Positions 8,101 to 58,903 of a stretch of 64,000 bases of DNA are shown here, piece after piece. A program made the position numbers and the translations under genes. Source of the DNA: Diplolepis rosae (lineage: Eukaryota; Arthropoda; Insecta; Hymenoptera; Diplolepididae); the NCBI GenBank assembly GCA_030998225.1, contig JAPYXD010000484.1:5146001-5210000 (forward strand), read 5' to 3'. The notes beneath the pieces were generated by a model. It was not told the origin of the DNA. It did not search any database and saw only the letters and a list, made by a program, of their open reading frames with translations. How positions within the stretch are numbered: the stretch's first letter is position 1; each line of letters begins with the position of its first letter.

Positions 8101-11100
8101 TGGGAATCAAGGACGCGGTGAAAAACCACACTTATTTTCGAAGTCAAATTTTATTATTCGTTTTAGTATTACTCAGAGCTTACAAGTCGTAGAATCGCTC
8201 TCGCAGACCACTGGATTAACATTGGAGACAATTTTTCTTCTTTCCTCCAAAATGCCTCACTGAATCTTGAAGTGGTGAGGAGGAGACGAGCCAAGACTCC
8301 TTTAATTGCTCCTTTAATTTACTGTCCCTTTTGAAAGTGTCCATGCGGGGAGTCAATGAAAGGACAAGTGGCATAGAAATACCAAGAAAGAGGGAATGTG
8401 TGAATAGGTGACAAATGTCTGGCTATCATCACTTACAGGTAGTACCATAAATAAGTCGTATTGGAACGGACACGACAATACGAAAGATAGTAAAGGGAGA
8501 AGGACACTGAACGTGAAACCTACACATCTCTTTCAGGACTCCCTTTTTTCTTTTTAATTATATTACTGGCCTCCTGGGCTTGGCCCGAATTTTTGTTTCG
8601 GGTTTTGTTGATGAACATTCTCAGCTTCCGAAAATGCCGAAATTCTTCTACATATAGAGATTACTTGCCCAAACTACAGATTTCGAAAACCTATGGTTTT
8701 CCCGTCACGGCACGGAATGCTTGGGCCTGTAATATCCACAGGGGGAAGAGAAATCCGATTTTCCCGTCACAGCACAGTATGGCGAGAACACTAAAAGAAC
8801 TCTTGAATCTAGTGTAATGAGCTCTCATTCTAAATTCCCAACACATACACACATATACGCCCATTTCCGGCTTACTATTACTTCCACCAAACACTTGAAA
8901 CTTAATAATTCTAAACTCGATTACCTCTACCAAAAACACTTAATATTTAATTTCTAACTCCAACTACCTCCACCAAAAACATTTAATATTTAATTTTCTT
9001 CCACCAAACAACAACTTCCACCCAAACCTTAAAAATTGTTCTATCTGTAACAGGTTTTATCTGTGTTTTATGCGGGACCTGAAATTGTTCCGCGTATATG
9101 GTCTTAAAGGATGATATTGAAGTTTGGAGACGTCTCAAACCCAAACTTGTGACGAATTGTGAGACGAACTATTAGGTGGATAATTCTTCTATGAGACGGA
9201 AATTTATCCCTAGATCAGGTAACGAAGGAAGACAATATAAGCAATAAACATTACCTCTATAAACCGAGGGACTCTTATACCGAAGTTTGGGATAAAATTT
9301 ACCTAAAGGAAACCCTTGTCACTGATCAGCATTTTATGACTTTTAGGTTGACACAAAATTATCATAAAAAACTTTGCTCATATTTGAACGCTACTTATGT
9401 AATGTAAATGATGAATATAATACTAATATGGTATTCAAATCAAAAGTTATAAAAAACTGAATGTTACAAAAGAATTTTTCTCTAATGGATCTTTACAAAA
9501 TATTTTTCTAAAAATTCAAGAAATGCAGTAGATGACGATAGAAAAACGTGATTCAACATAAAAAAGTTTATATATGATTTATTCACGTGGCCTGATAGAG
9601 AAATTGCCTTTCTAAAAATTCCAAATTAATTGAATCTTAGCGCAGGCAATAGAGGGAATTCTCAATTTTCTATTGCATATGTAAAACAGAACATGAAATG
9701 CATAGGGGTTGAGATTTCGCTGTTTTCCTGAGTGCATAAATTCGTCTTACTTTCAAGAAATTGAAATTTCCAAGCACAAACTTGAGACGATTTGGCCCCA
9801 CAACTTCTATCAGCCAGCTCGAAGTCGAACCCAAAAGCAGGTAGTGGGTCATTACAATAGAGGCAATAAACCGTACGTGCGGCGTACTCTTAATTCTAAA
9901 TTGATATTATACTTAAAGAACACATGAGATTTAACATCATAGAGGTTTTTCGCGAAACACATCATATGAGTGCAATGTCACATATGAGAACACGAATTGT
10001 GGAATGCTCATAAAGTGGCTGTAATTTTAATAAAAAAGTAATCTCAAGTGTTGAATTTGAAACAAACATACTGTTTTGGAAATGTAATAGAGTATAAAAT
10101 TATCATACTTCATACATCATACTTAATTTATATACGTTTCTCGGTGAGTTACGTTACTTTTTGTGAACGTAAAAAGTCGTAATAAAGGTACTTTTCGAAA
10201 AAAGTAATAGATTAAAGTTAATGTTGGTAGAGACGAAAAAGATGATAATGACTTGAACTAACTTCAGGAATTTTGAGAAAAACATTTTCTCTTTAATGTT
10301 ATGGTGACACGTTTTCCAGTAAATGTGCACAAAGAATCTTGTTGTTCTCTTTTTATTTACTCAAACAAAGTTTAATTGATTTATATTGTACATAATTTTG
10401 AAACATGGAAAAAACTTGTCTTTGTAACACTGAAAACAATAAAGTTACAACATGTTTTCATGCATATCAGACTAAGAAGATGAAGAAGTGATAGAATCAA
10501 CTTTTCTTGTAAATTGATATATATGACATAATGCAGAAGTGCATTACAATGAGATAAGATATCAAAAGAAACGTCAGCATGTATAGGTACAGACCGTTGT
10601 GAAAAAAGAGAAAATTTCATATATTCAGATATAGGCTGACTCACTAGACGGTCGAAATGACTGTGATGTAACCCTTTTTTTTAAACTTTTAAAACTGGAT
10701 TGTTTAGAGAATGATATAAGGAATCGAATAAATCCTGTAAGATAGCTCGCGTTCAATAAGAAGTTACTTTTTTTAAACGAAAACAATAGAGAAAATTTCT
10801 CTCTTTTAAAATTTCTAACACGCCTTTCTAAACATTCCAAATTAATTGAATCTTAGCCCAGGTAATAGAGGGAATTCTCCACTTTCTATTGCATATGTAA
10901 AACAGAACATGAAATGCATAGTGGTTGAGATTTCGATGTTTTCCTGAGTGCATAAATTCGTCTTACTTTCAAGAAATTGAAATTACCAAGCACAGACTTG
11001 AGACGATTTGGCCCCACAATTTTTGACAGCCAGCTCGAAGTCGAACCCAAAAGCAGGTAGTGGGTCATTACAATAGAGGCAATAAACCGTACGAGCTGCA

Positions 11101-14100
11101 TACTCTTAATTCTAAATTGAGATTATACTTAAAGAACACATGAGATTTAACATCATAGAGGTTTTTCGCGAAACACATCATATGAATGCAATGTCACATA
11201 TGAGAACACGAATTGTGGAATGCTCATAAAGTGGCTGTAATTTTAATAAAAAACTAATCTCAAGTGTTGAATTTGAAACAAACATACTGTTTTGGAAATG
11301 TAATAGAGTATAAAATTATCATACTTCATACATCATACTTAATTTATATACGTTTCTCGGTGAGTTACGTTACTTTTTGTGAACGTAAAAAGTCGTAATA
11401 AAGTTACTTTTCGAAAAAAGTAATTGATTAAAGTTAATGTTAGTAGAGACGAAAAAGATGATAATGATTTGAACTAACGTCAGGAATTTTGAGAAAAACA
11501 TTTTCTCTTTAATGTTATGGTGACACGTTTTCCAGTAAATGTGCACAAAGAATCTTGTTGTTCTCTTTTTATTTACTCAAACAAAGTTTAATTGATTTAT
11601 ATTGTACATAATTTTGAAACATGGAAAAAACTTGTCTTTGTAACACTGAAAACAATAAAGTTACAACATGTTTTCATGCATATCAGACTAAGAAGATGAA
11701 GAAGTGATAGAATCAACTTTTCTTGTAAATTGATATATATGACATAATGCACAAGTGCATTACAATGAGATAAGATATCAAAAGAAACGTCAGCATGTAT
11801 AGGTACAGACCGTTGTGAAAAAAGAGAAAATTTCATATATTCAGATATAAGCTGACTCACCAGACGGTCGAAATGACTGTGATGTAACCCTTTTTTTAAA
11901 CTTTTAAAACTGGATTGTTTAGAGAATGATATAAGGAATCGAATAAATCCTGTAAGATAGCTCGCGTTCAATAAGAAGTTACTTTTTTAAACGAAAACAA
12001 TAGAGAAAATTTCTCTCTTTTTAAAATTTCTAACACGCCTTTCTAAACATTCCAAATTAATTGAATCTTAGCCCAGGTAATAGAGGGAATTCTCCACTTT
12101 CTATTGCATATGTAAAACAGAACATGAAATGCATAGGGGTTGAGATTTCGCTGTTTTCCTGAGTGCATAAATTCTTCTTACTTTCAAGAAATTGAAATTT
12201 CCAAGCACAGACTTGAGACGATTTGGCCCCACAATTTTTGACAGACAGCTCGAAGTCGAACCCAAAAGCAGGTAGTGGGTCATTACAATAGAGGCAATAA
12301 ACCGTACGTGCTGCATACTCTTAATTCTAAATTGAGATTATACTTAAAGAACACATGAGATTTAACATCATAGAGGTTTTTCGCGAAACACATCATATGA
12401 GTGCAATGTCACATATGAGAACACGAATTGTGGAATGCCCATAAAGTGGCTGTTATTTTAATAAAAAAGTAAACTCAAGTGTTGAATTTGAAACAAACAT
12501 ACTGTTTTGGAAATGTAATAGAGTATAAAATTATCATACTTCATACATCATACTTTATTTATATACGTTTCTCGGTGAGTTACGTTACTTTTTGTGAACG
12601 TAAAAAGTCGTAATAAAGTTACTTTTCGAAAAAAGTAATTGATTAAAGTTAATGTTAGTAGGGACGAAAAAGATGATAATGACTTGAACTAACTCCAGGA
12701 ATTTTGAGAAAAACATTTTCTCTTTAATGTTGTGGTGACACGTTTTCCAGTAAATGTGCACAAAGAATCTTGTTGTTCTCTTTTTATTTACTCAAACAAA
12801 GTTTAATTGATTTATATTGTACATAATTTTGAAACATGGAAAAAACTTGTCTTTGTAACACTGAAAACAATAAAGTTACAACATGTTTTCATGCATATCA
12901 GACTAAGAAGATGAAGAAGTGATAGAATCAACTTTTCTTGTAAATTGATATATATGACATAATGCAGAAGTGCATTACAATGAGATAAGATATCAAAAGA
13001 AACGTCAGCATGTATAGGTACAGACCGTTGTGAAAAAAGAGAAAATTTCATATATTCAGATATAAGCTGACTCACTAGACGGTCGAAATGACTGTGATGT
13101 AACCCTTTTTTTTAAACTTTTAAAACTGGATTGTCTAGAGAATGATATAAGGAATCGAATAAACCCTGTAAGATAGCTCGCGTTCAATAAGAAGTTACTT
13201 TTTTAAACGAAAACAATAGAGAAAATTTCTCTCTTTTTAAAATTTCTAACACGCCTTTCTAAACATTCCAAATTAATTGAATCTTAGCCCAGGTGATAGA
13301 GGGAATTCTCCACTTTCTATTGCATATGTAAAACAGAACATGAAATGCATAGGGGTTGAGATTTCGCTGTTTTCCTGAGTGCATAAATTCGTCTTACTTT
13401 CAAGAAATTGAAATTTCCAAGCACAGACTTGAGACGATTTGGCCCCACAATTTTTGACAGCCAGCTCGAAGTCGAACCCAAAAGCAGGTAGTGGGTCAAT
13501 ACAATAGAGGCAATAAACCGTACGTGCTGCATACTCTTAATTCTAAATTGATATTATACTTAAAGAACACATGAGATTTAACATCATAGAGGTTTTTCGC
13601 GAAACACATCATATGAGTGCAATGTCACATATGAGTTTATTGCCTCTATTGTAATGACCCACTACCTGCTTTTGGGTTCGACTTCGAGCTGGCTGACAAA
13701 AATCGTGGGGCCAAATCGTCTCAAGTCTGTGCTTGGTAATTTCAATTTCTTGAAAGTAAGACGAATTTATGAACTCAGGAAAACAGCGAAATCTCAACCC
13801 CTATCCATTTCATGTTCTGTTTTACATATGCAATAGAAAGTTGAGATTTCCCTCTATTACCTGGGCTAAGATTCAATTGATTTGGAATGTTTGGAAAGGC
13901 GTGTTAGAACTTTTAAAAAGAGAGAAATTTTCTCTATTGTTTTCGTTTAAAAAAGTAACTTCTTATTGAACGCGAGCTATCTTACAGGGTTTATTCGATT
14001 CCTTATATCATTCTCTAAACAATCCAGTTTTAAAAGTTTAAAAAAAAGGGTTACATCACAGTCATTTCGACCGTCTAGTGAGTCAGCTTATATCTGAATA

Positions 14101-17100
14101 TATGAAATTTTCTCTTTTTTCACAACGGTCTGTACCTATACATGCTGACGTTTCTTTTGATATCTTATCTCATTGTAATGCACTTCTGCATTATGTCATA
14201 TATATCAAGTTACAAGAAAAGTTGATTCTATCACTTCTTCACCTTCTTAGTCTGATATGCATGAAAACATGTTGTAACTTTATTGTTTTCAGTGTTACAA
14301 AGACAAGTTTTTTCCATTTGTCAAAATTATGTACAATATAAATCAATTAAACTTTGTTTGAGTAAATAAAAAGAGAACAAGATTCTTTGTGCACATTTAC
14401 TGGAAAACGTGTCACCATAACAGTAAAGAGAAAATGTTTTTCTCAAAATTCCTGAAGTTAGTTCAAATCATTATCATCTTTTTCGTCTCTACTAACTTTA
14501 ACTTTAATCAATTACTTTTTTCGAAAAGTAACTTTATTACGACTTTTTACGTTCACAAAAAGTAACGTAACTCACCGAGAAACGTATATAAATTAAGTAT
14601 GATGTATGAAGTATGATAATTTTATACTCTATTACATTTCCAAAACAGTATGTTTGTTTCAAATTCAACACTTGAGATTACCTTTTTATTAAAATTACAG
14701 CCACTTTATGAGCATTCCACAATTCGTGTTCTCATATGTGACATTGCACTCATATGATGTGTTTCGCGAAAAACCTCTATGATGTTAAATCTCATGTGTT
14801 CTTTAAGTATAATCTCAATTTAGAATTAAGAGTATGCAGCACGTACGGTTTATTGCCTCTATTGTAATGACCCACTACCTGCTTTTGGGTTCGACTTCGA
14901 GCTGGCTGTCAAAAAATTTGGGGCCAAATCGTCTCAAGTCTGTGCTTGGTAATTTCAATTTCTTGAAAGTAAGACGAATTTATGCACTCAGGAAAACAGC
15001 GAAATCTCAACCCCTATGCATTTCATGTTCTGTTTTACATATGCAATAGAAAGTGGAGAATTCCCTCTATTACCTGGGCTAAGATTCAATTAATTTGGAA
15101 TGTTTAGAAAGGCGTGTTAGAAATTTTAAAAAGAGAGAAATTTTCTCTATTGTTTTCGTTTAAAAAAGTAACTTCTTATTGAACGCGAGCTATCTTACAG
15201 GGTTTATTCGATTCCTTATATCATTCTCTAGACAATCCAGTTTTAAAAGTTTAAAAAAAAGGGTTACATCACAGTCATTTCGACCGTCTAGTGAGTCAGC
15301 TTATATCTGAATATATGAAATTTTCTCTTTTTTCACAACGGTCTGTACCTATACATGCTGACGTTTCTTTTGATATCTTATCTCATTGTAATGCACTTCT
15401 GCATTATGTCATATATATCAATTTACAAGAAAAGTTGATTCTATCACTTCTTCATCTTCTTAGTCTGATATGCATGAAAACATGTTGTAACTTTATTGTT
15501 TTCAGTGTTACAAAGACAAGTTTTTTCCATGTTTCAAAATTATGTACAATATAAATCAATTAAACTTTGTTTGAGTAAATAAAAAGAGAACAACAAGATT
15601 CTTTGTGCACATTTACTGGAAAACGTGTCACCATAACAGTAAAGAGAAAATGTTTTTCTCAAAATTCCTGAAGTTAGTTCAAATCATTATCATCTTTTTC
15701 GTCTCTACTAACTTTAACTTTAATCTATTACTTTTTTCGAAAAGTACCTTTATTACGACTTTTTACGTTCACAAAAAGTAACGTAACTCACCGAGAAACG
15801 TATATAAATTAAGTATGATGTATGAAGTATGATAATTTTATACTCTATTACATTTCCAAAACAGTATGTTTGTTTCAAATTCAACACTTGAGATTACTTT
15901 TTTATTAAAATTACAGCCACTTTATGAGCATTCCACAATTCGTGTTCTCATATGTGACATTGCACTCATATGATGTGTTTCGCGAAAAACCTCTATGATG
16001 TTAAATCTCATGTGTTCTTTAAGTATAATATCAATTTAGAATTAAGAGTATGCAGCACGTACGGTTTATTGCCTCTATTGTATTGACCCACTACCTGCTT
16101 TTGGGTTCGACTTCGAGCTGGCTGTCAAAAATTGTGGGGCCAAATCGTCTCAAGTCTGTGCTTGGAAATTTCAATTTCTTGAAAGTAAGACGAATTTATG
16201 CACTCAGGAAAACAGCGAAATCTCAACCCCTATGCATTTCATGTTCTGTTTTACATATGCAATAGAAAGTGGAGAATTCCCTCTATTACCTGGGCTAATA
16301 TTCATTTAATTTGGAATGTTTAGAATGGCGTGTTAGAAATTTTAAAAAGAGAGAAATTTTCTCTATTGTTTTCGTTTAAAAAAGTAACTTCTTATTGAAC
16401 GCGAGCTATCTTACAGGGTTTATTCGATTCCTTATATCATTCTCTAGACAATCCAGTTTTAAAAGTTTAAAAAAAGGGTTACATCACAGTCATTTCGACC
16501 GTCTAGTGAGTCAGCTTATATCTGAATATATGAAATTTTCTCTTTTTTCACAACGGTCTGTACCTATACATGCTGACGTTTCTTTTGATATCTTATCTCA
16601 TTGTAATGCACTTCTGCATTATGTCATATATATCAATTTACAAGAAAAGTTGATTCTATCACTTCTTCATCTTCTTAGTCTGATATGCATGAAAACATGT
16701 TGTAACTTTATTGTTTTCAGTGTTACAAAGACAAGTTTTTTCCATGTTTCAAAATTATGTACAATATAAATCAATTAAACTTTGTTTGAGTAAATAAAAA
16801 GAGAACAACAAGATTCTTTGTGCACATTTACTGGAAAACGTGTCACCATAACAGTAAAGAGAAAATGTTTTTCTCAAAATTCCTGAAGTTAGTTCAAATC
16901 ATTATCATCTTTTTCGTCTCTACTAACTTTAACTTTAATCAATTACTTTTTTCGAAAAGTAACTTTATTACGACATTTTACGTTCACAAAAAGTAACGTA
17001 ACTCACCGAGAAACGTATATAAATTAAGTATGATGTATGAAGTATGATAATTTTATACTCTATTACATTTCCAAAACAGTATGTTTGTTTCAAATTCAAC

Positions 17101-20100
17101 ACTTGAGATTACTTTTTTATTAAAATTACAGCCACTTTATGAGCATTCCACAATTCGTGTTCTCATATGTGACATTGCACTCATATGATGTGTTTCGCGA
17201 AAAACCTCTATGATGTTAAATCTCATGTGTTCTTTAAGTATAATATCAATTTAGAATTAAGAGTATGCAGCACGTACGGTTTATTGCCTCTATTGTATTG
17301 ACCCACTACCTGCTTTTTGGGTTCGACTTCGAGCTGGCTGTCAAAAATTGTGGGGCCAAATCGTCTCAAGTCTGTGCTTGGAAATTTCAATTTCTTGAAA
17401 GTAAGACGAATTTATGCACTCAGGAAAACAGCGAAATCTCAACCCCTATGCATTTCATGTTCTGTTTTACATATGCAATAGAAAGTGGAGAATTCCCTCT
17501 ATTACCTGGGCTAAGATTCAATTAATTTGGAATGTTTAGAAAGGCGTGTTAGAAATTTTAAAAAGAGAGAAATTTTCTCTATTGTTTTCGTTTAAAAAAG
17601 TAACTTCTTATTGAACGCGAGCTATCTTACAGGGTATATTCGATTCCTTATATCATTCTCTAAACAATCCAGTTTTAAAAGTTTAAAAAAATGGGTTACA
17701 TCACAGTCATTTCGACCGTCTAGTGAGTCAGCTTATATCTGAATATATGAAATTTTCTCTTTTTTCACAACGGTCTGTACCTATACATGCTGACGTTTCT
17801 TTTGATATCTTATCTCATTGTAATGCACTTCTGCATTATGTCATATATATCAATTTACAAGAAAAGTTGATTCTATCACTTCTTCATCTTCTTAGTCTGA
17901 TATGCATGAAAACATGTTGTAACTTTATTGTTTTCAGTGTTACAAAGACAAGTTTTTTCCATGTTTCAAAATTATGTACAATATAAATCAATTAAACTTT
18001 GTTTGAGTAAATAAAAAGAGAACAACAAGATTCTTTGTGCACATTTACTGGAAAACGTGTCACCATAACAGTAAAGAGAAAATGTTTTTCTCAAAATTCC
18101 TGAAGTTAGTTCAAATCATTATCATCTTTTCGTCTCTACTAACTTTAACTTTAATCAATTACTTTTTTCGAAAAGTAACTTTATTGCGACATTTTACGTT
18201 CACAAAAAGTAACGTAACTCACCGAGAAACGTATATAAATTAAGTATGATGTATGAAGTATGATAATTTTATATACTCTATTACATTTCCAAAACAGTAT
18301 GTTTGTTTCAAATTCAACACTTGAGATTAGTTTTTTATTAAAATTACAGCCACTTTATGAGCATTCCACAATTCGTGTTCTCATATGTGACATTGCACTC
18401 ATATGATGTGTTTCGCGAAAAACCTCTATGATGTTAAATCTCATGTGTTCTTTAAGTATAATATCAATTTAGAATTAAGAGTATGCAGCACGTACGGTTT
18501 ATTGCCTCTATTGTATTGACCCACTACCTGCTTTTGGGTTCGACTTCGAGCTGGCTGTCAAAAATTGTGGGGCCAAATCGTCTCAAGTCTGTGCTTGGAA
18601 ATTTCAATTTCTTGAAAGTAAGACGAATTTATGCACTCAGGAAAACAGCGAAATCTCAACCCCTATGCATTTCATGTTCTGTTTTACATATGCAATAGAA
18701 AGTGGAGAATTCCCTCTATTACCTGGGCTAAGATTCAATTAATTTGGAATGTTTAGAAAGGCGTGTTAGAAATTTTAAAAAGAGAGAAATTTTCTCTATT
18801 GTTTTCGTTTAAAAAAGTAACTTCTTATTGAACGCGAGCTATCTTACAGGGTTTATTCGATTCCTTATATCATTCTCTAGACAATCCAGTTTTAAAAGTT
18901 TAAAAAAAGGGTTACATCACAGTCATTTCGACCGTCTAGTGAGTCAGCTTATATCTGAATATATGAAATTTTCTCTTTTTTCACAACGGTCTGTACCTAT
19001 ACATGCTGACGTTTCTTTTGATATCTTATCTCATTGTAATGCACTTCTGCATTATGTCATATGTATCAATTTACAAGAAAAAGTTGATTCTATCACTTCT
19101 TCATCTTCTTAGTCTGATATGCATGAAAACATGTTGTAACTTTATTGTTTTCAGTGTTACAAAGACAAGTTTTTTCCATGTTTCAAAATTATGTACAATA
19201 TAAATCAATTAAACTTTGTTTGAGTAAATAAAAAGAGAACAACAAGATTCTTTGTGCACATTTACTGGAAAACGTGTCACCATAACAGTAAAGAGAAAAT
19301 GTTTTTCTCAAAATTCCTGAAGTTAGTTCAAATCATTATCATCTTTTTCGTCTCTACTAACTTTAACTTTAATCTATTACTTTTTTCGAAAAGTACCTTT
19401 ATTACGACTTTTTACGTTCACAAAAAGTAAAGTAACTCACAGAGAAACGTGTATAAATTAAGTATGATGTATGAAGTATGATAATTTTATACTCTATTAC
19501 ATTTCCAAAACAGTATGTTTGTTTCAAATTCAACACTTGAGATTACTTTTTTATTAAAATTACAGCCACTTTATGAGCATTCCACAATTCGTGTTCTCAT
19601 ATGTGACATTGCACTCATATGATGTGTTTCGCGAAAAACCTCTATGATGTTAAATCTCATGTGTTCTTTAAGTATAATATCAATTTAGAATTAAGAGTAC
19701 GCCGCACGTACGGTTTATTGCCTCTATTGTAATGACCCACTACCTGCTTTTGGGTTCGACTTCGAGCTGGCTGACAAAAAATTGTGGGGCCAAATCGTCT
19801 CAAGTTTGTGCTTGGAAATTTCAATTTCTTGAAAGTAAGACGAATTTATGCACTCAGGAAAACAGCGAAATCTCAACCCCTATGCATTTCATGTTCTGTT
19901 TTACATATGCAATAGAAAATTGAGAATTCCCTCTATTGCCTGCGCTAAGATTCAATTAATTTGGAATTTTTAGAAAGGCAATTTCTCTATCAGGCCACGT
20001 GAATAAATCATATATAAACTTTTTTATGTTGAATCACGTTTTTCTATCGTCATCTACTGCATTTCTTGAATTTTTAGAAAAATATTTTGTAAAGATCCAT

Positions 20101-23100
20101 TAGAGAAAAATTCTTTTGTAACATTCAGTTTTTTATAACTTTTGATTCGAATACCATATTAGTATTATATTCATCATTTACATTACATAAGTAGCGTTCA
20201 CATATGAGCAAAGTTTTTTATGATAATTTTGTGTCAACCTAAAAGTCATAAAATGCTGATCAGTGACAAGGGTTTCCTTTAGGTAAATTTTATCCCAAAC
20301 TTCGGTATAAGAGTCCCTCGGTTTATAGAGGTAATGTTTATTGCTTATATTGTCTTCCTTCGTTACCTGATCTAGGGATAAATTTCCGTCTCATAGAAGA
20401 ATTATCCACCTAATAGTTCGTCTCACAATTCGTCACAAGTTTGGGTTTGAGACGTCTCAAACTTCAATATCATTCTTAAAGGGGTGTTAAGCAGGTCGTA
20501 TCCGGCCCTAAGAAGGGTTCTGTATGGCCATAACAGGGTTATATACGGAACCAAACATTGTTACGCTAGGTCCTTTTAGACACGCAGAGCGCATCTGACC
20601 AAATTTATTAATCTATGTCCCCGCTATAACCCGTTTAGATCCTGTTAGACGCCCATACCTTCGATTCACGGGATCACTGCTAGAACTACACTAGGCCCTT
20701 ATAGACACCCAGAGCGCACTTGACCAAATTTGACAATCTATGTCCCTTCTATAACCCGTTTAGATCCTGTTAGACGCCCATACCTTCGATTCAAGAGATC
20801 CTTGATAGAACCACAGTAGAACCGTTTAGACACCCAGAGTGCATTTGGCTAAATTTATCAATCTATGTCTCCGCTATGACCCATTCAGACCCTGATAGAC
20901 ACCCACACATATGATTCCTTAGATACCTGATACAACCAGGCTAGACCCGTTTAAAAATCCAAAGTGCACTTTGGGAGAATAGTTTTCATATACTAATCCC
21001 GGACGGTAGCCAGGTATACCCTGTTAGGTCCCGTTTTCCAATTAATAGTATATTATGTGCCTACGCGCATAATGAGGGTTATTACGCGACGAGCGACAAT
21101 GCTCGCAGATCGAAGCCAAGGCACAGTCGAGACGTAGCTGAGACGAAGCCGAAGCGCGATCAGTCCTGCGAGGATTTTAAGCGAGTCTCGTAATTGCCCG
21201 AATTTTGTGCATTGGCACATATTCTATTTTATGTGCCTTCGGCGCATTTACGAGTTTTTCTGCGTACACTCGAATCCAATCAGAAAAGGTCGAAATTGCC
21301 GTGATTATCGTCTATCTCACTTGACATTTCGCGAATACTTCCGGCCATTTTGATTTTCTCGATCTTGTGTAGTAGTTAGTAGTAGCGTATTGTAATAGAC
21401 GCATGTGCAGTTCAAATGTACAAGGCTTTGTCAGTACGGTGCCAACGCTGTACGAAGAAGAAGAAGAATAAGAAGATTACGCTCCGCTGTATCATATTAG
21501 GCGCAGGCGCAGTTCAATTTTTACATTATGTTCCTCTGTATCGAAATACACAACATTACGCTACTCTCAACTGTAGCATAAAAACGCGTTAATGCGCCGG
21601 AGGTACATAAAATAATATTATTTGAGTACCAATTACCCATGTAGAACTCGCTTACACCCAGATAGCATTCCACAATTATGTTATAATTTCCCGTTAGAAA
21701 CCAGGTAGGTCCGGATACAGTGCCAGAGCTTATGATGGGAATCTACCCGGGTTTTAAATGGCGTTTTACCCGGTTCCAAACATGGAACATTACTTTTTTC
21801 GCTAAATTGAGTATAGTTTTTATACCTTAAAATTAACGAAAGATTCAAATGGAATAGGAATAAAAATTCTTATTGTAGTTATTTGTTCGTCTGGTATCAT
21901 GAAAGTGAATATCGCTGTTCTCATGGTTTCGAAAATGAAAAAAAAGTTTAATTTCACAAAATATATCAACAAATTTTTTTTCATGATCAAAACCAAAAGT
22001 AGTTTATCTACGTCTGTTTTTATCTTCTCTGCCATTTCTCAAATTTTGGAAGCAAAATGTTATGTATTTTGGACACAAACATGTAGAAACTAGACCAAAT
22101 TGTTCAGATGAAATTCCTAATTTTCTCGAATATCACATGCTCTTAAAACCGCTCAAACAACGACTAAAAGTTAAGCGGATCAAGGCGGGAAAATAGAAAA
22201 TTCTCAAATAAGAACTACGAGGGTCATTCAATAAGTCCTTAGAAAATCCTAGAGATGGCGCTCGTAGTATCGAACATGGTTTGGTTTTAGTCAGCATCAT
22301 TACTCACTAGACAGCTGTTAAAGTATTAGTTATATCCATCACATGATTTCATTTTTATTGTCGATTGAAGCAAAAAACTTTTCTGTATTTAGAAAAATAG
22401 AAAAAAGTGAGTTTCGAGTGTTGATTAAACACTTATATTTAAAGGGATCAATGCCGAAAGAGATCAAAGATGAGTTGAATGGAGTTCACGGCATATCTGC
22501 TCCTGTGTTTGCAACTGTTCACAATTGGGTAAATGAGTTTAAACGTGGCCGTACATCCACAAAAGATGAACATCGTTCGGGACGTCAAGTGGAAGCTACT
22601 ACCAGCGTTGCCAACGATCGAGACAAAAAGTCAGGAGCTTTTTATCAGGAGACTTAAAAAAAATCAGGAGATTTATAAAAATTAAGAATTATTCTTAAAA
22701 TAATTAAAATACTGTTAAATAATATAATTTCATTATATAAAAGCAAAATGACATGAAATGAAGCATTTTACAGTTGTAAACATCATTCTTTCACATTTTT
22801 CAACCAATAAGATCGCGGATTCGTCAGCCACCTTAAATTTTCTCGCGGGAATATTTCAAATTCTCTTGACCCGAAAATGATTATTATTTTTGAAATAATA
22901 AGCAATGCAATTACAATAATTTGGATAATTTTATTTATTATTATTCCTGCCATAACAAATTTTAAAGTTGATTTTACTTAAATTTTTTAAAAACGATTAG
23001 TGAATTTACATCACCTCTCTAAAAGATTGAAAAAAAACATTCGAATTATATATACGATTTCAGATCTTTTTTACTTTTATCACAAAATTTTATAAGCGGC

Positions 23101-26100
23101 TACTACAACATCCATTATTTTAATTTTGATCCAAAAAAAAAAAAAAACAAATTTAACTATAGCTTAACAGACCAATTTTTAGTCCAACAGGCTACGATGA
23201 GCACCCACGATGAGACATTATTCTGTCCTGTATCTAAGAAACTTTGAAAGTATAAAACTATAAGATTACTAATTTTTTTTACCAACTCCAATATAAAATT
23301 TTTCGCAAACAATCCTCTATAGGCTCCTGTGCACTTTGCTCAAGTGCCGAAAAAAATCAGGAGACTTTAAAGAAAATCAGTATATCAGTAGCCACTCTCA
23401 AAAATCAGTAGAACTCCTGATAAATCAGTAGCAATGGCAACGCTGGCTACTACCCCAGAGATGATTGAAAAAATCCACGATATGGTTTGAGTGATCGACG
23501 AATCCAAGTGCGCGAAATAGTTGAGGCCACAGGCATATCGCAAGGTACAGTGTTTTCAATTTTGTACGAAAAATTGGGTATGAAAAAAATCTCGGCAAGA
23601 TGGGTGCCGTGTATTCACCGGATTTGGGTCCCAGTGATTTTTTTTTATTTCCAAACTTGAAAAAATGTCTCAGCGGACAACGGTTCACGTCGAAGAAAGA
23701 GGTCATCGCCCAAACAGTTGCCTAATTTGAGGACCTTCCGAAATCCTACTTTTTGGATTGCTTAAAAAAGTTGGAGAAACGCTTGGAAAAGTGTATAAAG
23801 TTAAAAGGACATTATTTTTAAAAATATTTAAAAATCTACACAAAATAATTTGTTTTTCTATCTTTTTCTAAGAACTTATTGAACGAGCTTCGTAGTTTTT
23901 TCGCACAAAGTCCGCCTCAATAAATCAAATTTAAATCTGTCCAGGTCGGATACTTTCCAACTAAAATCCGTTTAAATAACGTTCTTAATTTCGGTTCGGG
24001 TTTAAACATAATATATATTATAGAAACCTTGCATATAAGTAGAGAATGCCAAATATTCGAGGATATCTGGTTTAGAAATAGTTGTCCTGTTTTGTTCTTC
24101 CTGAAGACGATCCATGGCTTCTTGCATCCAAAGCACGGTGTGATAATAATCGCCGTTATTGTAAGACTGTCTGCCAAGCTCAAAGCAGTCGCCAGCTGAA
24201 ATTTTAAAAATATTTCACATATTTTACAAAAAAACTCTCAATACTCAAACAAAAATGTTATTCTAACTTTCAAATACTCAATTTATTATATTTATTTATT
24301 CAGAGATTTATTATTCCTAAAGTTTAGAATAAGATGCGAGATCTTAACTCTAGGGAGGGATTTCTTCACGATCGAAGCACAAGGGACTTTATATTTTTCA
24401 TGTCCACCTTCCATTTGAGCAAAACTTTAGTACGGTGAACGTGAGGCAAGATAAAAGTTCTGTTTTCATTGCGGGAAAATTAATAGTGATCTGAAGACGC
24501 GTGGGAAATCAGTTTCGATCGTCTCTAGAAGACAATCTGTCGTCTAGATTTATAAGAATATAACTTTCTTTCAGAATTTCAATTGATAAATCTCACCGTT
24601 CCTGAACAAAAGTAATAAAGTTGAAAGAATTTAATTCTCGGCTTCTTCCTTCAATTTTTAATTCCTTATCGATATCAATTAATAAGTCAAGCGAGAACAT
24701 ATTTTCATTAATAAACCATTTGTTTGGTTGAATAAAGTTTTGAGATTATTGAAAGTGATTAAAAATTCTTTTTAATTTACTGAAATTAGTATAGTTATTA
24801 GAAAAAAAATCTCTCATATTTTTAGTGGCGAGCAGTAAATTCACACTGAAATTTAAAAAGGGATTTTGAATTATAGCTAGTCTCGACAAAACGAGTTGTT
24901 TTAATTAAATCAGAGAGGTTACTTGGCTGCATTAAAAACTGCATTTACGAGTTTAGTTAAATTTTCTCTAAAGTGTGAAAGGTCTTGATAAATGGCAGGG
25001 CAAAAACCCTAATAATTCAATATTTAAAATTCAATATCTAGTTTCAGAGTGACAACGAAAAAAGCACAACTTTCTGATTGGAGGATCAATTTACGCTTAT
25101 GGGAGCTTCCATGTTAGTATATTATCTTTTGAACGTACAAGTTGATATGTTCGCTAATTAACTGCTTCGCTTCTTCTCTTCGGTTGGTAACGAGACCCAT
25201 CGGCCTTCTTTAATCAATTTTATATTCATTATTTGAAGATAACATAACTATAACTATAACTTTAACATTAAATAGAATAAAATTATAAAGATGAATTGAG
25301 CAAAAATATATAAAACTCTCTAAAGTTTCTTGAAATGGAGTTTTCACTCTCATGTTTCACTCGAAAAAATTTAGAGAGAACATTTATACATAGTTGATGA
25401 TTTAAAATTATAAATGGAGCCCCTTGTAGAAATTTTTCTAGTAATACTAGATTTCTTGTTCAGGCCTCTTCGCACTCAGAAAAAATATTTGATTGAATCG
25501 AAAAAATTATTTGTTTGAAACACTTTCTTTGATGTAAAGAAGTGTTTTGTTTAAATGAAAAAAAAATTGTTTGATTAAAACAAAATATCTTTGGACCAAA
25601 TAAATATTTGTTCGAATCAAATAAATTTCTGCATTAAATCAAACAAATTATATCTTTGACCATAAATCAAGGCATTAATTTCTTTGTTTTGAAGAAAAAT
25701 TAATTTAACTCAAACAAATATTTATTTGGTTCAAAGATATTTTGTTTGAATCAAACAAATTTTATTTCATTTAAACAAATCATTTCTTTAAATCAAAGAA
25801 AGTCGTTCAAACAAATCATTTTCTTTGATTCAATCAAATCTTTTTTCTGAGTGCGGGATTAGCCATATTTTACTTGAATGGAGTTGTGACCAGTTTAGAT
25901 CTAGACGGGTTCCCTGCTATAAAATGGACATAACTAAATTGAGTTTTTCACTAAAAAGTAACTAGCCGAAAAGTTGTTTGAATTAGCAAATTCTAAACAT
26001 AAAAAACCTTCTAGTTCTGGACCGGAAATGTGACTAGATATTCTAGGAAACTCCGACCTATTCTATCCATCTCTTCCTTCTTAAAACTGTACAATCTTAA

Positions 26101-35747: not shown

Positions 35748-35774
35748 TGTTCTTTAAGGCTGATAGAGCCTTAA

Positions 35775-36397
35775 GGTAGTTTTCATCCACAAAAATTAGA
35801 CCTCAGGCAAAAATAGATAATTTTGCTTTCAAGAATAGCAATATTATTATTGGAGGGCTATTTTGAAAGAGAAAAGTTTATTTTACAAGAAAGAAATTTG
35901 AAATACAGAAAAATAATTTTATTAATAAATTTTATTTTTGCCTTAACTTTTTTTCTTATCGCTTCTTACCAAATTTTAAAAAATTATGCGATTCTAATAA
36001 ATCATGAATCATTTTTTCAGAGAAAAGATTCCCTACAACTTAACCATTACCAATTTTCGGAAATGAATAAATTATCACCAAATTCAGTAATTTGTTTATA
36101 AAAATTTCGTTTTGGAAAATATTTTTTTAATGGTTTCAGCCATTAAAGAATTTATTTTTGAAAATCAGAAACGGTGAAGTTGTGGGAAATCTTTTCTCTG
36201 AAAAAATGATTCATGATTTATTACAATCGCATAATTTTTTAAAATTTCGTAAGAAGCGATAAGAAAAGTTTCAAATTTTTTTCATGTAAAATAATCTTTT
36301 CTCTTTCAAAATAGCCCTTCAATAACAATATTGCTATTCTTGAAAGTAAAATTATCTATTTTTTCCTGAGGTCTAATTTTTGTGGATGAAAACTACC
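35775..36397. mobile_element. GGTAGTT-family foldback with TTAA duplication, complete
   Basis: Nearly palindromic 623-bp element: GGTAGTTTTCATCCACAAAA at the left, and its complement ending ACTACC at 36397, with TTAA on both sides (35771-35774, 36398-36401). The left arm carries AATAGATAATTTTGC, GAGAAAAG, CTTATCGCTTC and AATCATGAATCATTTTTT, all mirrored. The empty version of the same site is at 29225-29230. Confidence 0.9.
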
Positions 36398-36401
36398 TTA
36401 A

Positions 36402-36600
36402 GTAAATTGAATTTCCTTTTTCATTTGAAATCATAAATAAATTTAGTAACTTTGTGAAAATCTAATTCACATCTACAATATTATAAAATTGACTTGAGCT
36501 TCAATATCAAATTTCAAGAAATTAACTTATATGTATGTGAAGAATATATGACCGAGCGCGAAGCGCGAATAATGAATCGCGCGTCCTAGGTGCATTCAAA
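36402..36600 (-). repeat. downstream flank of the CATTCTCATCATG repeat with decayed hairpins
   Basis: Same flank as 29231-29420 and 60307-60440, ending in GAGCGCGAAGCGCGA and GCGCGTCCTAGGTGC, a worn copy of the hairpin cluster at 60430-60565. Confidence 0.65.
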
Positions 36601-38788: not shown

Positions 38789-38792
38789 TTAA

Positions 38793-39456
38793 GGTAGTTC
38801 GTTCACAAAAAGTAGACCTCAGGCAAAAATAGATAATTTTGCTTTCATGAATAGTAATATTATTATTGAAGGGGTAATTTGAAAGAGAAAAGATTATTTT
38901 TTATGAAAAAAATTTGAAACACAAAAAAATAATTTTATGAATAAATTTTATTTTTGCCCAAACTTATTTTCTTATCGCTTCGAGCCAAATTTTTAAAAAT
39001 GATGCGATTTTAATAAATCACGGTTCATTTTTTCAGGAAAAATATTTTCTACAACATGACTGTTTCCTATTTTTGAAATTGAATTAATTATTATCAAATA
39101 CAGCAATTTGTTTATAAAAATTTTGTTTTGAAAAATTGTTTTTTTATCATTTCAGCCATAAAAGAATTCATTTTCAAAAATTTGAAACGGTCAAGTTGTA
39201 GAGCATCATTTCCTAAAAAAATGAACCGTGATTTATTAGAATCGCAACATTTTTAAAAATTTGTCTCGAAACGATAAGAAAATAAGTTTGGGCAAAACTA
39301 AAATTCATTAATAAAATTATTTTTTTGTGTTTCAAATTTTTTTCAGGAAAAATAATCTTTTCTCTTTCAAATTAGCCTTTCAATAATAATATTGCTATTC
39401 TTGAAAGCAAAATTATCTATTTTTGCCTGAGGTCTAATTTTCGTGGATCAACTACC
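38793..39456. mobile_element. GGTAGTT-family foldback, complete
   Basis: 664 bp, flanked by TTAA (38789-38792, 39457-39460). Arms start GGTAGTTCGTTCACAAAA and end GTGGATCAACTACC. The arms contain the family words CTTATCGCTTCGAG and AATCACGGTTCATTTTTT and their complements. The centre at about 39080-39150 holds AATTTTGTTTTGAAAAATTG. Confidence 0.9.
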
Positions 39457-39460
39457 TTAA

Positions 39461-50703: not shown

Positions 50704-51460
50704 AAGGGTTTCCCAATAGGGGTGATATGATTTTGAATGTCCCTATCGGGCTCATTTGAACTGAAATTTTTGACGTCTGCTGTCAGTTGTCATCAGTAAG
50801 GTTTGCCATTTAATCATGAGTAGTTTCACGCTTCCACAACGTTTGGAAATTGTCCAATTATTTTATCAAAATTCGAGAAGTTTTGTCGGTGTTCAAAGAG
50901 CATATCGTGCAAAATATGGTCGTCATTCTGCTCCATCCGCGCTCTCAATTCGTCGAATAATCGATAAGTTGGAGAGTGAATTTACTCTATTGGATACTAA
51001 GCTTAAAAATCGTATGCGTACCGCACGTTCTACACAGAATATAGCCGCCGTACAGGCCAGTATCGAGGAAAACCGTGAATTGTCCGTGCCACGCCGATCT
51101 CAGGAATTGGCCCTGTCCAGGATGACTACCTGACGTATTTTGCGATTGGATCTTGGCCTGCATCCCTATAAGATGATTCTGGCCCAAGAACTGAAGCCTA
51201 ATCACCATCGTTTGCGTCGGGAGTTCGCGGATTGGGCTCTGGAATCAATTGAAAATGATCCCAATTTTCATCAAAAAATCATCTTTTCTGATGAGGCGCA
51301 TTTTTGGCTCAAGTCTCGGGGTACATTTGGCCGATATATTGTTTAAATCATAAATGGCATAGAATATCCAATATAATAAAAAAGATTTCGATCAATTCCG
51401 AATGAATATTCAGTGTTTTTTTTCAATTTCAAAACATATCACCCTTATTGGGAAACCCTT
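50704..51460 (+). mobile_element. Tc1/mariner-superfamily element, internally deleted
   Basis: Ends AAGGGTTTCCCAATAGGGGT (50704) and TTATTGGGAAACCCTT (ending 51460), about 26 bp with one mismatch, each flanked by TA. 757 bp; a full copy would be roughly twice that. Encodes the transposase fragment below. Confidence 0.9.
50816..51350 (+). pseudogene. transposase fragment with DUF4817-type N-terminus
   Basis: ATG start at 50816. MSSFTLPQRLEIVQLFYQNS, then VQRAYRAKYGRHSAPSALSI resembles the DUF4817-type N-terminus of an insect mariner-superfamily lineage. A stop (TGA) follows SRMTT at 51131; the frame then resumes RILRLDLGLHPYKMILAQEL and LRREFADWALESIE, ending FSDEAHFWLKSRG, which carries the first catalytic Asp. 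The rest of the catalytic domain is deleted. Inactive. Confidence 0.85.
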
Positions 51461-55310: not shown

Positions 55311-55451
55311 GATGTATGCCCCAGGCAGCGGCGCTGAGAATGAGTCTGCGAGTGTTTGTGAGGAATGAGTGAACTGATTGAATGACAGCGCCGCCTGACT
55401 GTGATATGTGTCCTTCGAATGTGAGAGGAGAACCTATATACGGTCTCCCTC

Positions 55452-56084
55452 TTGAAAGTGAATAAGAGCGAATTGGTGTATGGAATCTCCTGGTGGACAC
55501 TACAAAAGCCTCAGCAGTTTGTGACCAAGAACAGTCCAAACGATCGTTTCCGAAAGGAGCTCGACCTGGCGGTCGGAGAAAGGGCGCAAATTTCAGCCCT
55601 GGTCTCGACGAGGTCCCTCGAAATTAAGGACCTCGACGAGACCGTTGTAAAAGAAGAGGTTGTGTCTACCCTGTGCTTGGCATTGGGCAGACCAGCTTTT
55701 GAGGGGTCCTGCAGGCTCTTCACGCGCTTTGGTGGGGTGAAGACTGCAGTGATTCGGCTAGCTGAGGCAGACGCCGCGCGTCTGCTTCAGCTAGGTAAGT
55801 TGAGGATCGGGTGGGTAGAGTGCCGCATCCGTGAGCACGTGGAAGTCGCCCGCTGTTTCAGGTGCCTTGGGTACGGCCATGGGTCCCGGGGCTGCAGCAA
55901 CCCCGACAGGAAAAACGCCTGTTGGAGATGCGGCGCCACGGGACACTTGGCCAGGACTTGTAAGGCGCCACCAAGGTGCCTGTCATGCGCAGACAGGGGC
56001 GAAAAAGATGTCGCCCATGTGTCAGGGAGCGGCTCCTGCCCGGTCTTCCGGGAAGAGCTTCAGAGGTTGAGAGACAGGAATTGA
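55452..56084 (+). pseudogene. LINE ORF1 (gag-like), 5'-truncated
   Basis: About 210 residues open to a TGA at 56082-56084. RRM-like segment TRSLEIKDLDETVVKEEVVS ... VIRLAEADAARLLQLGKL, then zinc knuckles CFRCLGYGHGSRGC and CWRCGATGHLARTC plus a third CLSC...C knuckle. Matches R1-clade ORF1, an RNA-binding chaperone for the element's own RNP. No ATG fits the observed start; a full ORF1 is about twice as long, so the N-terminus is lost. The last bases overlap ORF2, whose endonuclease starts around 56078. Confidence 0.88.
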
Positions 56085-56935
56085 AGTTCCTGCAGCTCAA
56101 CCTCGGAAGGGGGAAGGATGCCCAGGACCTCCTGATGCAGACTGCCAGGGAGAGGGGGGCTGATGTGCTGCTCATTAGTGAGCAGTACAAGTGGTCCGAT
56201 AACTCTGCTTGGTATCAGGATGCATCAAGGAGGGCCGGCATCCTTGTTTGTAACCCTGATTTGAGCGTCGGGGACTTCCTGGAGACCGACGCGGGGTTAG
56301 TTTGGGTGGAGGTGGCGGGGGTGCGTGTGTACAGCTGCTACTTCTTCCCCGGCGATCCCTTCGATGTCTTTAAGACCCAGATCCTCCTCCTTGAGGAAAG
56401 CCTCCGTGAGGCCACCGGGCGATCCCTCATAGGGGGTGACTTCAACAGTAAGTCGCCCGAGTGGGGTGAGGCCCGCCTAGATAGGAGGGGAATCTTGGTT
56501 GGCGAGATGGTCGCTAGGAACAAACTGATCGTCTTGAATCAGGGCGGGGAATTTACGTTCAGACGAGGAGCAGGGGGGTCAATAATTGATCTCACAATTG
56601 CCGCACCTCGCCTCGCTTCAAGGATAAGCGACTGGTCGCTCCTCGAGGTAATAACCTTGAGTAACCACCGGTGCATCGAATTTACACTAGAACAACGGTG
56701 TCAGGCGGTGGATAAGGGTAGGGGCGGCGAAGGATGGAGCCCCTCCTGGAACACGAGACGACTCAGCAGGGAAAGACTTCGCGAACACCTCGAAGAAACC
56801 AGGCTCATTGACGAGCTTGGTTGGGTCTGCCCTGCTGGGTCGTTTGAAGCTGCTGCGCGCTCGGTGAGGCAGAAGGTGGTCGCGGCTTGTGACTACTCGA
56901 TGACTCGCCGTAAGCGCAGGCAAGCCAAGGGTTCG
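56078..56935 (+). pseudogene. LINE ORF2: apurinic-like endonuclease domain
   Basis: Reads ELKFLQLNLGRGKDAQDLLM, LLISEQY, IGGDFNSKSPEWGEARLDRR, GSIIDLTIAAPRLA, LSNHRCIEFTLEQ: all catalytic landmarks of the exonuclease-endonuclease-phosphatase fold (Asn in LNLGR, Glu in SEQY, Asp-x-Asn in GDFNSKSPEWG, SNHRCI). It would nick the genomic target for target-primed reverse transcription. Intact up to about 56935, where a frameshift occurs (TAG at about 56944 in the continuing frame). Confidence 0.9.
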
Positions 56936-57002
56936 ATGTACGTAGGCAGCCCTACGTCGAGAATGCCTCGCAGCGCGGCGAAATTTCACCCATTCAAAGG
57001 GG

Positions 57003-58240
57003 GATGCTACGCTGCGCGAGGCATGGAAAGGGGCAAAAACAGCTTTGAGGCGAGGCATAAAGAAAAGCCGACTTCAATGCTGGAAAGACTTGATCGGTGA
57101 GGTCGAGAAGGACCCATGGGTTCTCGCCTTCAAAATAGTCACCAAGTGATTGGTGACTAGAAGAAATACCCCGGCCCTGGATAATCCCGATCGAGTCAAG
57201 TACATTGTGCGAAGCTTGTTTCCACACGTGGAGCCGTTCCAAAGACAGGACCGAAGTTCCTGCGTGGTCCGGCGCGAAGAACTCTTCACTCTCGAAGAAC
57301 TAAAGAGAGCGGGTGGAAGGATTAAGGCAAAAACAGCGCCGGGTATCGACGGGGTGCCGAACGAGATCCTCAAAGAGGTGATCGGGGAATACCCGGAGAT
57401 CCTCCTAGAAGCCTTTAACTCCTGTCTTCGGGATGGGAGGTTCTTCGCAGATTGGAAGAAGCAGAGGTTGGTCCTGCTGAGGAAGGGCAACAAACCTCTA
57501 GGGGTTGCCTCGTCGTATAGACCAATATGCTTATTGGATACGATGGGGAAGCTTCTGGAGGAGTTGATTCTACAACGGCTTCGGGCTCTCTTGGTCGGGG
57601 AGAACGGGCTCTAGGAAAACCAGTTCGGATTCAGGAATGGCAGGTCCACTGTGGACGCCATCCAAGCTGTGGTTAACATCGCCACAAATGCAAGAAAAGG
57701 AAGTGGTAAGCGTAAGGGATTCTGTGCGTTGATTAGCATTGACATTCGCAATGCGTTCAATACCGCGAGATGGGACATCTGCATTGAGGCGATGATGCGG
57801 AAAAAGGTTCCAGACTACCTGTTGCGAATGATAGATGACTATCTGAGCGACAGGTGGGTGATATACGAGGGCGAAAAATGGTCTCTCAAAGAAGAGATGA
57901 CATGTGGCGCTCCTTAAAGGTCGCGGGTGGGTCCACTCGTTTGGAACATCATGTACGATGACTTTCTGCGCATGGACCTACCTGCTGGAACGAGCATCGT
58001 CGGCTTCGCGGATGACGCACTTGTGTGCGCCGCTGACGACGTCAGAATCCTAGAGCTGAGGATCAATGAAAGTCTGTGGCGAGCAAAGCGCTGGTTGGAT
58101 GGCAGAGGTCTTAAAATGGCCCCTGAGAAAACCGAGGCTTTGCTCGTTACGGACAGGAGATCCTTCCAATATCCGAGGATTGTTCTCGGAGAGCATGAAG
58201 TCGAGTGGAAAACAAGCATTAAGCTTGAAAAGAAGATTGG
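57003..58240 (+). pseudogene. LINE ORF2: reverse transcriptase domain
   Basis: Continues DATLREAWKGAKTALRRGIK, KSRLQCWKDLIGEVEKDPWV, a TGA at 57147-57149, KTAPGIDGVPNEILKEV, SYRPICLLDTMGKLLEELIL, stop TAG 57612, NQFGFRNGRSTVDAIQAV, SIDIRNAFNTARWD, CGAP, stop TAA 57915 (family has PQG here), SRVGPLVWNIMYDDFLRM, FADDALVCA. SIDIRNAFN and FADDAL are R1-type RT motifs A and C, with the FADD catalytic Asp pair intact. The three stops make it inactive; two of the three can be explained by C-to-T changes. Confidence 0.9.
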
Positions 58241-58903
58241 TGGCGAGCGTGATCCATTCGAAGCTGCTTTATGCAGCTCCGGTCTGGGCCAATGCCTTGC
58301 AAAACCATGCTATCCAGAAGAAGCTGTTCTCGGCGCAGAGACTTGTCGCGCTGAGAATAGTTTCGGCATATACAACTATCTCGACGAGCGCTGTGCTGGT
58401 CCTGGCGAGCGTCCCACCAATAGATTTATTGGCGGAGGAAAGACAGGAAACCTTTCAGCTTCGCAAGGAGCTTACCTGCGTCGACCTGCAGGTAATTGCT
58501 CGCGCGAAGGAGGCCATCCGCAAGGATGGAAGGCGCAGACTCGTCGAGAAATGGCAGATGAGATGGCATGGTGAGCAGACAGGGAGATGGACCTACCGCC
58601 TGATCCCGGAGCTGTTTTAACGCGTACCTCAGGCGCTTTAAGAAGATAGACGAGGAGACGTGTTGCTACTGCGATTTCCCGGTGGATAACGCAGAGCACG
58701 CACTCTTCGTCTGCGCAAAATGGGGTGTGGCTAGAGAGGTCCTCGGTCAGGCGGTGGGTTCCGAACTTACTCCTGACACGATGGTCCCTCTCATGCTCCA
58801 GTCTGAACGGTTCTGGACGCTCATCGAGTCATTCGTCACACTTGTGATGAAGACGAGAGAACTTGATGGGCGTCGAGAGCGAAACAACGGGGAGGGTCAG
58901 TAG
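58215..58903 (+). pseudogene. LINE ORF2: C-terminal region with CCHC finger
   Basis: After a deletion and frameshift near 58215-58245 the frame reads HSKLLYAAPVWANALQ, LFSAQRLVALRIVSAYTTIS, LASVPPIDLLAEER, EKWQMRWHGEQTGRWTYRLI. After another shift at about 58620 it reads RFKKIDEETCCYCDFPVDNA, EHALFVCAKW: a Cx2C...Hx4C finger typical of the R1 ORF2 C-terminus. Ends TAG at 58901-58903. Confidence 0.85.

Follow-up and report, generated by a model that had tools for sequence, protein, structure and literature searches.

Foldback elements with repeat-built arms have been described in several animals. In the published account of the Drosophila elements FB and Galileo, the long inverted repeats contain internal tandem repeats, as in the family described here, and those of Galileo hold extra transposase binding sites (PMC4079207). 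Galileo is assigned to the P superfamily (PMC3688188 and PMC4168063), which sets it apart from the present family. Among the published foldback literature searched, Tetris of Drosophila virilis and Tm1 of Meloidogyne are the nearest elements. As described, Tetris has a terminal flanking domain and tandem repeats within its inverted repeats, 8-10 bp duplications, a variable repeat number, and a short similarity between the terminal domain and the repeat, but its repeat is about 220 bp long and its authors found no transposase-encoding copy (PMC4079207); according to the same account, some known foldback families, including Tetris, lack an identified enzyme. Tm1, a foldback/Mutator element, is reported to have foldback-like ends, 9-bp duplications, and a single copy, Tm1-A, that encodes a MULE-like transposase; in contrast to the present family, its repeats are about 14 bp long and its transposase is Phantom-like (PMC3169594). 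Rehavkus, such as Rehavkus-1_TC of Tribolium, is described as an outgroup of the MULEs.

We analysed a 64-kb stretch of DNA (the window), in which positions 9111-20473 very likely represent a non-autonomous foldback (hairpin) DNA transposon descended from a large element of the Mutator/MULE superfamily that resembles Rehavkus and whose TIRs consist of a 495-bp terminal block followed by tandem 1,216-bp units. Its parent, with a gene for a Mutator-like enzyme that could mobilise it, is probably located elsewhere in the genome. The features are as follows.

9102..9110, no strand: left 9-bp target site duplication TCTTAAAGG (exact match)
9111..9605, + strand: left terminal block T, 495 bp, starting ATGATATTGAAGTTTGGAGACGTCTCAAAC
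9606..10821, + strand: unit L1, 1,216 bp, of the outermost-unit lineage (groups with the outermost units of other elements)
10822..12036, + strand: unit L2 (BLAST parse)
12037..13252, + strand: unit L3 (BLAST parse)
13253..13635, + strand: partial unit, unit positions 1-383; at the turn, two BLAST matches overlap by 1 bp at 13635
13519..13635, no strand: hairpin loop, unit positions 267-383, which the right arm leaves unpaired
13636..13900, - strand: right-arm partial unit, positions 265-1 (about 266 bp); turn as in C398, C86, C370, and C261
13901..15113, - strand: unit R5, innermost
15114..16329, - strand: unit R4
16330..17545, - strand: unit R3
17546..18762, - strand: unit R2
18763..19979, - strand: unit R1, outermost
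19980..20473, - strand: right terminal block T, 494 bp, inverted
20474..20482, no strand: right 9-bp target site duplication TCTTAAAGG (exact match)

On the + strand of the window, TCTTAAAGG occurs exactly twice, at the two positions listed (9102-9110 and 20474-20482), and both copies directly abut the element ends, as the original prediction had stated. That prediction also offered a base-by-base parse, whose structure is right and whose phase differs from ours: its 760-bp domain is recut here as the 495-bp terminal block and the initial 265 bp of the adjoining unit, with units starting from 9606. The 118-bp loop that it described exists (117 bp in our parse) and consists of unit positions 267-383, not of foreign DNA. 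The eight near-identical units that it counted were all recovered, three full units on the + strand and five on the - strand, and identity to the first of them is 97.1-98.4% for the other seven; between the two terminal blocks it is 99.4% by BLAST and 99.6% with gaps excluded. It was likewise correct that no transposase lies inside: the longest listed ORF within the element encodes 124 aa (ORFs of at least 80 aa considered), and tblastn found no match of the family transposase in the 64-kb window. The element has the foldback form, that is, long inverted repeats of tandem units with little or no middle, and chance is excluded because of the scale and because the same plan is present at other loci with other 9-bp duplications. 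Elsewhere in the window, MITE-like palindromic repeats, each self-complementary and some hundreds of bases long, are seen at 38789-39460, 35770-36402, 25471-25855, and 348-672, and the ORFs at 55425-58617 look by eye like a non-LTR retrotransposon.

The genome searched has 428 contigs that total 757.7 Mb. When the left 790 bases served as the query, 36 of the best 40 of 1,778 candidates pair as inverted ends, giving at least 18 elements. The exact 29/30-base terminus occurs 95 times genome-wide (42 forward and 53 reverse; reversed control, 0), and the left terminus of the window element has one extra G compared with the other 94 exact termini listed. Ten elements were analysed with complete sequence (the window element, C298, C376, C398, C169, C203, C350, C86, C370, and C261), and 18 more were analysed at both ends, making 28 pairs. 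Copies with ATGATATTGAAG ends and other 9-bp duplications, which had been proposed as a check, were indeed found: 25 of the 28 pairs carry full-length ends, a few of them with single-base changes, that are bordered by a perfect 9-bp duplication. In C86 the duplication is present if the left end has lost two bases, while C356 (7/9 alike) and the transposase copy of C239 have none. No two of the 26 duplications are identical. Two further pairs of termini were seen, in C359 and C393. Their base composition (n = 26) is 32% G+C versus 33% in the window, and a target-site preference was therefore rejected, an A/T-rich middle being the sole feature.

When the two flanks of C298 are joined, they align through the junction to a related repeat that is unfilled and has a single copy of the duplication (128/167 identities). 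The joined flanks of C261 likewise match an unfilled related repeat (124/163), a weaker match because only ~18 bases lie on one side and the repeat is palindromic; C261 is itself inserted in a palindromic repeat. For the other eight of the ten elements, no unfilled site was found in the DNA searched, C169 matching only its own right flank. The 28 pairs span from 5.7 kb (C252:8475310-8481019, known from its ends alone) to 64.1 kb (C388:2190753-2254852). Fifteen inner stretches of C388 (1 kb, 10 kb, and 13 samples; about 17 of 64 kb) were all unit sequence, except for 47 bp of terminal block in one stretch; the sampled units are in + orientation up to 2244399 and in - orientation from 2248000, and the first unit lacks positions 202-323. 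A second subtype was seen in C203, C350, and C239, in which the terminal block is separated from the array by a degenerate stretch of unit sequence (about 75% identity) together with a partial unit that starts at position 634.

Among the 92 full units of the ten elements, mean identity is 0.987 within versus 0.982 between elements, and 13 of 16 outermost units cluster together, along with one inner unit (C261_L3). The unit tree requires 38 label changes for the ten elements versus 60 with shuffled labels, in a tree whose bootstrap had not settled; the units of the window element, C370, C261, C169, and C350 do not cluster on their own. Based on the identities, the grouping of outermost units, and the tree, the arrays share ancestry, and expansion within the element is clear in some elements, not all. 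In C376 and C398, which show arm-specific expansion, units resemble those of their own arm more closely than those of the opposite arm (0 and 3 of 10,000 permutations as high, respectively); this is not the case in C86 (7,492 of 10,000). In the four arms tested, neighbouring units are no more alike than distant ones. Homogenisation of both ends inside an element was also considered and shows little sign, because the left and right terminal blocks have nearly equal mean identities within the ten elements (0.9931) and between elements (0.9909). The 3+5 plan is common to the window element and C261, which lie in opposite orientations; neither is a simple copy of the other, because a comparison unit by unit shows partial agreement in the five-unit arm and none in the three-unit arm. 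The terminal block and the unit have a 24-bp stretch in common (20 identities), which as a transposase-binding repeat is a weak lead at most: 9 of 500 shuffles scored equally well, and among the 92 units it shows no extra conservation, 58% of 30-bp windows being more conserved.

A transposase between such ends, which the original prediction had proposed to look for, was found in C298 and also in C239, the latter without a matching duplication. In C298, each arm contains two full units and part of a third, and the arms flank a 32.6-kb core. The arms are mirror images (99.4% over 3.2 kb; L1-R1 0.9959, L2-R2 0.9951). The core carries a transposase gene on the - strand, divided by one in-frame stop into the pieces P0002 (527 aa) and P0001 (743 aa), and includes a piece of an unrelated DUF4817 transposase, to which 50774-51130 (+) of the window is near-identical by eye. 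Among the best 60 of 173 candidates in the genome, 97% copies of the transposase lie in C239 and C180, and many further relatives are 28-90% identical and mostly broken; many such broken relatives (28-90% identity) are situated at about 2.45-6.29 Mb of contig C203. The C239 copy is frameshifted and lies between family termini 25.7 kb apart, whose flanks do not match; its transposase side is ~98% matched to the C298 core, the stretch by its right arm corresponds, in mixed orientation, to the middle of the C298 core, and that arm comprises only about one composite unit. The C180 copy is also frameshifted. Its core joins the units at unit position 265 (about 1256442), as on the left side of C298, and inverted units follow in the sequence covered, up to 1258000; a family terminus is located at 1290541, with a terminal-block match at 1290043-1290541. 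A separate 1,994-aa frame (L052:142-6123 (-), G000 contig C370) combines an OTU protease domain (PF02338, 7.7e-9) with a Rehavkus-like catalytic region and, by eye, C48-like and PHD-like parts; it is 28% identical to P0001. Database relatives of the transposase are few among the 7,999 candidates sharing most words, with one at 99%; the alignment query gave 22 related proteins among 7,999 such candidates, one named as turbot at 22%.

The aligned catalytic residues support a place in the Mutator superfamily, which the fold may also favour, more weakly. The catalytic motifs were identified by eye, with CxxH between the second D and the E of a DDE transposase taken as the MULE pattern: LHLDAT is present in 3/3 rows reaching there, xDWSW in 5/5, CxxH in 4/5, and the E block in 4/4. 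CxxH is found in the catalytic region of C298, of its sister C240, and of three more distant relatives; P0003 and C239 have Phe and Tyr there, and Tyr replaces His in C180. In P0003, 72 residues separate the two D and 219 separate D2 from E. The 9-bp target duplication agrees with the length of about 9 bp expected of a MULE. The tail of the transposase is Cys/His-rich, and that of C240 gives a Pfam PHD match over the whole profile (1-47/47) at an E of 0.72, below the cut-off. Of the FB/Mutator-like placement originally given, the Mutator part is supported, and the lineage looks more like Rehavkus than FB, judged from published descriptions of Rehavkus.

The sister C240 is about 79% alike over 4.2 kb of the core. 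Its related terminal block (82% over the first 284 bp) leads into single-copy stretches that correspond to unit positions 196-498 and 508-597; no array of the 1,216-bp unit was found within the 20 kb examined at this end, and the other end of C240 was not located. Because C240 has these single-copy stretches without an array, the unit probably existed, prior to amplification, as one subterminal piece of the inverted repeat. C350 retains a 1.6-kb core, mostly matching the right end of the C298 core, and is likely an intermediate with a shortened core. The turn at unit positions 383/266 is common to the window element, C398, C86, C370, and C261, which have 3+5, 5+15, 9+4, 6+2, and 5+3 full units, respectively, while it is 423/807 in C376 and 736/153 in C169; the BLAST matches at the three turns overlap by 1, 4, and 5 bp, respectively. 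The window hairpin is probably a derivative by internal deletion, and each turn structure is obtainable by one deletion between two inverted arrays, the 383/266 type having then spread. We propose that the transposase would bind the terminal blocks and insert the element with a 9-nt stagger, and that a subterminal part of the inverted repeat was presumably amplified to an array whose unit number may still be changing. Post-excision repair or another deletion could have taken out the coding core, one array and the other, inverted array would have become joined through a short overlap to give the hairpin, and hairpins may later have been mobilised in trans.

Turns at arbitrary unit positions with overlaps of 1-5 bp are also expected from template switching, and an inverted duplication inside an array, through a template switch or fold-back synthesis, could have produced the hairpin instead of core deletion. 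We consider this unlikely: the C298 arms are already inverted arrays with mirrored units, and therefore a single deletion is enough for a hairpin, and C350 resembles the intermediate with a shortened core. A recent inverted duplication also predicts arms most alike about the turn, whereas the window arms match at 97.0% over 7.96 kb there and at 98.6% over 4.5 kb in end register, and the within-arm likeness of units in C376 and C398, though not C86, speaks against it as well.

Duplications of 8-9 bp are also known in hAT, P, and Merlin elements, the best Foldseek match of the transposase is Hermes, and P element transposases are in the fold list, all of which would suit elements of another superfamily with the C298 transposase as a passenger. 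This is quite improbable, as the transposase side of one core lies between family ends in both C298 and C239 and beside a unit array in C180, in C240 about 1.9 kb separate the related terminus from the end of the transposase frame, and the CxxH described above recurs in the relatives. That the window element is almost wholly tandem units would fit a satellite array or a segmental palindrome with no mobile element, a reading we regard as scarcely tenable against the defined ends, the 9-bp duplications at 25 of 28 pairs, and the unfilled related site of C298; the original description as a discrete mobile object rather than a satellite stands. Long palindromes are a known source of misassembly, and the exact unit count of any single copy could still be wrong, but an assembly artefact as the whole explanation is very improbable, since many contigs (up to 26 Mb long) carry the plan, with differing flanks, unit numbers, and turns, and with 9-bp duplications on both sides.

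One genome holds a foldback family, copies with a transposase as its probable parents, a likely intermediate whose core is shortened, and a sister that is arrayless at the one end seen; therefore the origin of foldback elements and of repeat-built arms becomes directly testable, and foldback elements are tied to the little-studied Rehavkus lineage. The family also offers natural material on how large a cut-and-paste transposon can be, a review having put the loss of efficiency at cargo sizes above 6 kb (PMC6431247). More tentatively, a MULE-lineage transposase may move near-perfect palindromes of 11 to 64 kb intact while the arrays grow between jumps, which would make the family both a transposon and a travelling satellite factory. 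Rehavkus, as described, has a 9-bp duplication, a PHD-like finger in its transposase, and tandem repeats by its inverted termini; the present family has the same duplication length and, in both C298 arms, 1.2-kb units by the inverted termini. In contrast, the described Rehavkus unit is 164 bp versus 1,216 bp here, and the listed TIR is 26-400 bp versus the 495-bp block and the 3.2-kb C298 arm, in a listing that may leave out arrays. Elements of up to 64 kb and core-less hairpins further distinguish the present family, no hairpin derivatives being described in the Rehavkus literature covered by full-text search. The present family fits the Rehavkus plan as described, with units seven times longer.
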